A DNA stretch of 64,000 nucleotides from Flavimaricola marinus (GTDB lineage Bacteria > Pseudomonadota > Alphaproteobacteria > Rhodobacterales > Rhodobacteraceae): assembly GCF_900184895.1 (NCBI RefSeq), contig NZ_FXZK01000001.1:620001-684000 (forward strand), in the 5' to 3' direction. A model generated the notes under the pieces. It was not told the DNA's origin, made no database searches, and saw only the letters and a program-made list of their open reading frames with translations. Both the position numbers and the translations under genes were made by a program. Every line of letters begins with the position of its first letter. Within the stretch, counting starts at the first letter, position 1. Of this stretch, positions 1,764 to 3,831 are shown piece after piece.

Positions 1764-2744
1764 ATGGGCCAACTGATCGACGGCGTCTGGGACACAAGCT
1801 GGTATGACACGAAATCGACGGGCGGAGCCTTCAAGCGCAAAGAAGCGCTGTTCCGAAACTGGGTGACCGCCGACGGGTCTGCGGGGCCGACAGGCACAAG
1901 CGGGTTCAAAGCCGAAAGCGGGCGCTACCACCTCTATGTCAGCTACGCCTGTCCTTGGGCGCACCGGACGCTGATCTTCCGGGCGCTCAAGGGGCTGGAG
2001 GAGCACATCGACGTCTCGGTCGTCAGCCCGGACATGCTCGACGACGGCTGGACCTTCGACACCGGCTTTGACGGGGCGACGGGGGACAAGCAGTTCGGGC
2101 TGCCCTTCCTGCGGGACATCTACGTGCGGAGCGAGCCGAAAGTCTCGTGCCGGGTGACCGTGCCGGTGCTCTGGGACAAGCAGACCGGGCAGATCGTCAC
2201 CAACGAAAGCTCCGAGATCATCCGCATGTTCAACTCGGCCTTCGACGGCATCACCGGCAACAGCGACGATTACTGGCCCGAGGCGCTACGCGACGACATC
2301 GCCCCGATCAACGACCGGATCTACAACACGCTGAACAACGGCGTCTACAAATGCGGCTTTGCCACCACGCAAAAGGCCTATGACGCGGCGATCACGCCGC
2401 TGTTCGACACCATCGACTGGCTCGAAGACCACCTGTCGCGCAATCGCTACCTGATGGGGGATACCATCACCGAGGCCGACTGGCGGCTCTATCCCACGCT
2501 GATCCGGTTCGATCCGGTCTACTACGGGCATTTCAAATGCAACCGGTCGCGGATCATGGATATGCCCAACCTCTGGGGCTACACGCGCGAGCTCTATCAA
2601 TGGGACGGGGTGGCCGAGGTAACGCGGCTCGATCACGCGGTGCGGCACTACTACTACAGCCACGAAACCATCAATCCGCACCGGATCGTGCCCGTGGGGC
2701 CGCGGATCGACCTCAGCGCCCCGCACGGACGGGACGGGATCTGA
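1764..2744 (+). CDS. Glutathionyl-hydroquinone reductase (Xi-class GST, YqjG/PcpF family)
   Basis: Reduces glutathionyl-hydroquinones with glutathione, releasing hydroquinone; cytoplasmic. The 326-aa length fits the family. The catalytic motif is YACPWAHRT with nucleophile Cys63, followed by the typical WTFD and DKQTGQIVTNESSEIIRM segments (thioredoxin-like domain with the ES motif) and the C-terminal helical domain with ADWRLYPTLIRFDPVYYGHFKCN, which is diagnostic of the Xi class. ATG at 1764 is chosen for AGAGGAG 6 bases upstream; the longer reading from 1710 adds a basic tail not seen in the family. It is a single gene, spaced 80 bases after the methyltransferase. Confidence 0.93.
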   Translation: MGQLIDGVWDTSWYDTKSTGGAFKRKEALFRNWVTADGSAGPTGTSGFKAESGRYHLYVSYACPWAHRTLIFRALKGLEEHIDVSVVSPDMLDDGWTFDTGFDGATGDKQFGLPFLRDIYVRSEPKVSCRVTVPVLWDKQTGQIVTNESSEIIRMFNSAFDGITGNSDDYWPEALRDDIAPINDRIYNTLNNGVYKCGFATTQKAYDAAITPLFDTIDWLEDHLSRNRYLMGDTITEADWRLYPTLIRFDPVYYGHFKCNRSRIMDMPNLWGYTRELYQWDGVAEVTRLDHAVRHYYYSHETINPHRIVPVGPRIDLSAPHGRDGI

Positions 2745-2878: not shown

Positions 2879-3256
2879 CTAGACGGGCTGGGTCTCGGCA
2901 TGGCTGCCGTAATGCTCGACCATCGCGGCAAGGTCTTCCGGCTTGGTCCCGGTGCGGACGAGGGCCCGGGCATTCGGAGTCATTGAGAAAATAGAACCGT
3001 CTGAAAAGAACGAGGTATCAGTGACAAAGATGACGTTGGTGTTGGGCTGGCGATACTGGGCATAATCCGAAACAGCCAAGGCCGACCCTTCGGCAAGGAT
3101 CAGGTTCAGGATGATCACATCGAAGTCCTGGTCCCCGATGGCCTCGACAGCCAGATCGGAGGTCTCGGCATGATGCACCTCGAACGATAATCGCTCCAGA
3201 TGTCGTCGCCATATATTGGCCAGTTCAATTTCGCTTTCGACGATCAAAACGCGCAT
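2879..3256 (-). CDS. Stand-alone receiver-like protein lacking the phospho-acceptor Asp
   Basis: A 125-aa single-domain CheY-like protein with no output domain. The beta1 segment is VLIVESEIEL, so the usual acidic pair is E7-S8-E9. The strand that normally ends in the phosphorylated Asp reads FDVIILNLIL, putting Asn51 at that position. The switch Thr is present (VIFVTDT, Thr79), while the beta5 Lys position holds Arg101. These substitutions suggest a phosphorylation-independent (pseudo-)receiver, which is inference. The minus-strand upstream region holds a perfect CtrA box (3335-3350), suggesting cell-cycle or motility-linked control. ATG at 3256 is preceded by GAGGTTTTGC. Partners are unknown. 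Confidence 0.75.
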   Translation of the reverse strand: MRVLIVESEIELANIWRRHLERLSFEVHHAETSDLAVEAIGDQDFDVIILNLILAEGSALAVSDYAQYRQPNTNVIFVTDTSFFSDGSIFSMTPNARALVRTGTKPEDLAAMVEHYGSHAETQPV

Positions 3257-3334
3257 GCAAAACCTCCTCGGTCCGGTGTTGAAGTTTATTTTTGGTTAAA
3301 GCATCTCCACACCCTGTGGATGCTCCTCAGTTCC

Positions 3335-3350
3335 TTAACAATAGGTTAAC
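3335..3350. promoter_or_regulatory. CtrA binding box
   Basis: The sequence TTAA-CAATAGG-TTAAC matches the alphaproteobacterial CtrA consensus TTAA-N7-TTAAC exactly. It sits 79 bases upstream of the receiver-like gene (start 3256, minus strand) and 110 bases upstream of the DUF1636 gene (plus strand), so it could serve either. The surrounding 3257-3459 region is AT-richer than its neighbours and carries two more TTAA half-sites (near 3296 and 3376). Confidence 0.6.
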
Positions 3351-3459: not shown

Positions 3460-3831
3460 ATGACAACCTGGATTACCATCTGCGACACCTGCAAACGGCC
3501 CGGTTGGGACCAGACCGATATGCAGACGACCGATGGCGAGGCGCTCGCCGCCCTGATCGAAGCCGCCGCCGAAACCACCCCCGTCCAGACCCGCCGTGTG
3601 TCCTGCACCATGGGCTGCGAACGGGCCTGCAACGTCATCGTGCAGGGGGCGGGCAAGATCGGCTACTCGATGGGCACCTTCGAACCGCTGGCCGAGGCCG
3701 CGCAGGGGATCGTCGACTACGCCGCCCTGCACCACGCCAGCGAAACCGGACAGGTGCCCTACCGGGAATGGCCGCAGGCGGTCAAAGGGCACTTCGTCAG
3801 CCGCCACCTGCCGACACCGCCCGAGGCATGA
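3460..3831 (+). CDS. DUF1636 metal-binding protein of cobalamin loci
   Basis: A 123-aa soluble protein with a thioredoxin-like ferredoxin pattern: CDTC at residues 8-11 and C49, C53, C57 in [16 protein letters not shown]1636 proteins are found almost only beside cobalamin synthesis or cobalt genes and are presumed metal-binding; the exact function is not established. The TGA overlaps the cobC ATG (ATGA at 3828-3831), so it is the first gene of a coupled cobC-cbiB operon. The upstream region contains CACAATAAGGCG as a weak ribosome site. Call is confident at family level only. Confidence 0.8.

Follow-up and report, generated by a model that had tools for sequence, protein, structure and literature searches.

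A predicted orthologue of the CckA inhibitor Osp with a natural Asn51 and an upstream CtrA box in Flavimaricola marinus

Introduction

What does a stand-alone receiver protein do when it lacks the phospho-acceptor, and is its gene tied to CtrA? The question is raised by an ORF at 2879-3256 (minus strand) of the window, i.e., the whole 64,000-nucleotide stretch of DNA that was analysed. A sequence-only reading of this DNA had taken the product for a pseudo-receiver that acts by protein-protein contact, with Asn in place of the Asp as its defining feature, and had suggested that the gene belongs to the CtrA network.

A protein of this kind has been described. Osp of Rhodobacter (Cereibacter) sphaeroides (RSWS8N_09785; Vega-Baray et al. 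2022, mBio, PMC9430884) is receiver-like, has D51 but is without the acidic pair and the beta5 Lys, and is not phosphorylated; its transcription is activated by CtrA, and it binds the transmitter domain of CckA and inhibits autophosphorylation at a 1:1 ratio (PMC9430884). A laboratory-made D51N version is still functional, with swimming rings of 1.12 cm for the D51N plasmid, smaller than the 1.64 cm for wild-type Osp, each having been tested against the osp mutant only (PMC9430884). FixT of Sinorhizobium and Caulobacter is likewise receiver-only and not phosphorylated, and inhibits autophosphorylation of the histidine kinase FixL; by the description given there, FixT and Osp have a common type of mechanism but differ in kinase target and regulatory circuit (PMC9430884).

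Results

We examined the ORF by sequence and Pfam analysis, which bore out its reading as a receiver-only protein with Asn51 and an altered acidic pair. The start codon is ATG, and the product matches Pfam Response_reg at 35.3 bits (cut-off 30.2). E7-S8 stands where the acidic pair is expected, leaving the pair absent, and the usual Lys position is Arg101 or Thr102, depending on the alignment, with Lys in neither case, in agreement with the earlier claim that the conserved Lys is replaced. A genome search gave a copy number of one. The AlphaFold model of the product (built from two sequences) was of low confidence beyond residue 80 and was used in no fold search or interface claim. The features of the region are as follows.

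1767..2744, plus strand: convergent neighbour, glutathione S-transferase family protein (GST_N_2/GST_C_2); adjoins osp in 27 of 31 loci, function unrelated
2879..3256, minus strand: predicted osp orthologue, 125 aa single-domain pseudo-receiver (inhibitor of CckA); ORF call, Pfam, reciprocal best match and 151-orthologue alignment
3104..3106, minus strand: codon 51, AAC = Asn, the phospho-acceptor position; sequence and alignment column 51
3263..3268, minus strand: AGGAGG ribosome-binding site, 5' of the osp ATG; sequence
3335..3350, no strand assigned: predicted CtrA box TTAA-N7-TTAAC, palindromic core 3335-3349, 78 bp before the osp ATG and 110 bp from the divergent DUF1636 start; sequence match, conserved upstream of orthologues
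3460..3831, plus strand: divergent neighbour, DUF1636 protein (PF07845); adjoins osp in 10 of 31 loci, presumably outside the system

The identity of the gene was assessed by way of L202, a family member in genome G051. In the published locus a TetR-family gene precedes osp at a distance of 243 bp, a conserved gene follows after 111 bp, and the CtrA site is placed 54 bp 5' of the ATG (PMC9430884). At L202 an ORF ends exactly 243 bp upstream (weak TetR_N match of 17.4 bits, under the cut-off of 24) and a gene starts exactly 111 bp downstream; the box is 53 bp before the ATG, and residue 51 is Asp. From the locus distances and the box position we infer that L202 is the published R. sphaeroides osp locus. 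The window protein and L202 are 46% identical over 116 aa, gap-free, and are reciprocal best matches (E=4.5e-26 in the reverse search, vs 0.065 for the next). With L202 taken as the published locus, the window gene is, on sequence criteria, an orthologue of osp, and its product is the predicted counterpart of an already described brake on CckA, here with one catalytic residue naturally absent.

The two proteins share the single-domain receiver form, a length of about 120 aa, the numbering of position 51, the absence of the acidic pair and of the beta5 Lys, and an upstream CtrA box. They differ at residue 51, where the Asn of the window protein against the Asp of R. sphaeroides Osp is equivalent to the laboratory D51N mutant; in the distance from box to ATG (78 bp vs about 54 bp); and in their neighbours, i.e., GST and DUF1636 genes in the window vs a TetR-family gene and a hypothetical protein in R. 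sphaeroides.

How far the altered residues extend was assessed in 298 genomes sampled from the same family, 170 of which had a match at E<=1e-12; 151 orthologue sequences were gathered and aligned, and all counts out of 151 refer to these. Column 51 held D in 121, N in 24, S in 3, Q in 2 and E in 1, so that 30 orthologues were without Asp. Two acidic residues at 7-8 were retained in only 7/151, Lys was found at 101 in one orthologue and at 102 in one, and none of the 151 had all four catalytic residues together. The orthologue alignment, a check named beforehand, thus went against Asn as the defining feature: L038, a genome of the same genus, has Asp51, as do the 121 orthologues noted above. 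The conclusion that the protein is a pseudo-receiver stands, since loss of the acidic pair and of the Lys is family-wide. Other positions were strongly conserved, W16, D64 and F84 being invariant in the 151 orthologues and R22, P71, S85-D86-G87-S88-I89-F90 and N95 nearly so; the window protein keeps the family hallmarks W16, R22, D64, FFSDGSIF and N95.

On a maximum-likelihood tree the Asn51 group requires at least 19 changes, and the well-supported branches alone force 7; the tree is that of a short protein with many branches unresolved, and the changes at position 51 may be gains or losses. Asn51 is common to the window protein and its sister L006 (branch support 97/90). Judged by the alignment and tree, Asn51 is a recurrent, species-level variation and not the origin of the pseudo-receiver state. 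Asp is retained by 80% of orthologues, which suggests that residue 51 is not wholly free to vary.

A single-protein scan of genome contigs gave one clear named orthologue, from Roseovarius (L035), and two further matches that are distant receivers; no orthologue was found in the plasmid collection. In five genomes of the family (G007, G042, G082, G126 and G254) the protein matched twice, which shows that there are second copies or paralogues. L211 and L212 (in G126 and G066) are distant members with 32% identity that have no CtrA box and lie 3' of a same-strand ORF, the C-terminus of which we take to resemble a UvrD/PcrA-type helicase; they are probably a separate paralogue group, not Osp.

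The sequence TTAACAATAGGTTAAC at 3335-3350 is an exact match to TTAA-N7-TTAAC, as first read, and the sole one in the 64-kb window, for which the expectation was 0 (100 shuffles). In the sense of osp the box is TTAACCTATTGTTAAG; its 15-base core stops 78 bp 5' of the ATG, and its TTAAC end faces away from osp. The whole genome (4.79 Mb) had 27 matches, several being one site counted on both strands, vs 11 for the reversed control pattern, and the CtrA box is only moderately enriched genome-wide. The significance of the 3335-3350 box derives from its conservation upstream of orthologues, not from genome-wide enrichment. Within 200 bp upstream, an exact TTAA-N7-TTAA was present for 69/151 orthologues (shuffle mean 0.59, maximum 3), and for 125/151 when up to one mismatch was allowed (shuffle mean 11, maximum 21); spacings of N3-N6 and N8-N12 gave merely 0-4 exact matches upstream of the same 151. 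The distance from box to start codon had its mode at 65-79 bp. The exact box was about as frequent in N51 members (12/24) as in D51 members (55/121), and no link between Asn51 and loss of the CtrA box was seen among the 151 orthologues. Loci lacking DUF1636 (e.g., L012, L014, L020, L023, L024 and L033) still have the box 5' of osp, and it hence goes with osp. CtrA appears to switch osp on in the window organism. L006 (68% identity; the nearest sampled orthologue outside the genus) had no recognisable CtrA box in the 200 bp that precede its osp start codon, so that CtrA control of osp is not universal even in near relatives.

The partners were searched for in the organism's own genome, which encodes CtrA (378.8 bits vs a curated NCBIfam cut-off of 350), ChpT (85.1 bits), flagellin, and CckA, for which CckA was by far the best family yet the score fell below the NCBIfam cut-offs, which are designed for Brucella and Caulobacter. 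CtrA and DivK were each searched for with a probe sequence, and the CtrA match was confirmed independently with NCBIfam. No stand-alone DivK was found in this genome with the DivK probe, the best matches all being at <=34% identity and inside longer ORFs. A 525-aa PAS protein resembles the short DivL of Rhodobacterales (L052/L236), and its gene has an exact CtrA box 43 bp upstream (C16:1371097-1371112); with a box there as well as at osp, both putative CckA regulators may be CtrA targets. R. sphaeroides and the window genome are alike in having CckA, ChpT and CtrA with a short DivL-like protein and no stand-alone DivK. Two further exact CtrA boxes in the genome, about 1 kb apart (L046 and L048; C16:169303-169319 and C16:170291-170307), precede genes for a LuxR-type autoinducer receptor (Autoind_bind + GerE) and a LuxI-type synthase (Autoind_synth), which suggests that CtrA may be coupled to quorum sensing.

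Discussion

We consider it very probable that the window gene is osp, and that CtrA raises osp while Osp blocks CckA autophosphorylation, forming a negative feedback on the CtrA regulon. CtrA-P would bind the predicted box at 3335-3350 and increase osp transcription. Osp would remain unphosphorylated and, with Asn51, could not be phosphorylated at residue 51; it would dock through the receiver's kinase-docking surface onto the CckA transmitter (DHp/CA) and block autophosphorylation. ChpT and CtrA would then receive less phosphate, CtrA-P would fall, and the CtrA regulon would be subject to negative feedback. The experiments were those in R. sphaeroides, and for the window organism the mechanism would follow from orthology and the conserved box. 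We infer that the CckA interface is formed by the invariant alpha1 (W16, R22) and the FFSDGSIF patch. The proposal of a pseudo-receiver acting by protein-protein contact gains support from the orthologue Osp, a published direct inhibitor of CckA, and so does membership in the CtrA network, Osp being CtrA-activated (PMC9430884); what that proposal missed was the upstream role as a brake on CckA.

The protein could instead be a divergent Osp orthologue, marked as such by Asn51, that no longer inhibits CckA or has turned to another kinase, acting as an adaptor with another partner. The Asn is not common to the same-genus L038, and partner specificity is not readable from sequence. Against this, the hallmark residues listed above are all kept, box and partners are present, N51 is held in common with L006 on a well-supported branch, and the D51N form of R. 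sphaeroides Osp is functional (PMC9430884), so that we regard such divergence as improbable; basic Osp function should be unaffected by Asn51. A related idea, that the repeated Asp-to-Asn change across genera is adaptive, with Asn giving a locked, stronger CckA inhibitor and Asp keeping some tunability, is rather doubtful, if somewhat less so.

That the box belongs to the divergent DUF1636 gene at 3460 or acts on both genes, with osp here outside CtrA control, is about as improbable as a divergent Osp with another partner. The TTAAC does face 3460 and the site is 110 bp from the DUF1636 start, but orientation says little because the core is palindromic, DUF1636 adjoins osp in only 10 of the 31 loci while the box stays upstream of osp elsewhere, and R. 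sphaeroides osp is CtrA-activated despite a TetR-family upstream neighbour (PMC9430884). The chance that the protein is CpdR or DivK, each a canonical free-standing receiver of the CtrA network, altered by a local mutation is close to nil. The top NCBIfam match is CpdR, through the common receiver fold, and no Osp model was among the NCBIfam matches to the window protein; the active site, however, is degenerate across the family and the hallmark motif differs. CpdR identity itself was rejected, the CpdR equivalog scoring 32.5 bits vs a cut-off of 180. DivK and CpdR of the Caulobacter CtrA network are, like Osp, stand-alone receivers on the CckA-CtrA pathway. Their phosphorylation site is complete and their action depends on phosphorylation, whereas the Osp family is without a complete site.

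With the gene read as osp, no known principle is changed, and the window gene joins the described Osp family. The predicted CtrA-Osp-CckA negative feedback would be extended over many genera of the family. The repeated appearance of Asn51 is natural evidence that Osp needs no phosphate at residue 51: Asp51 is absent in about one-fifth of genera, several times independently, while the gene, its hallmarks and the box are kept, in support of Osp working unphosphorylated.
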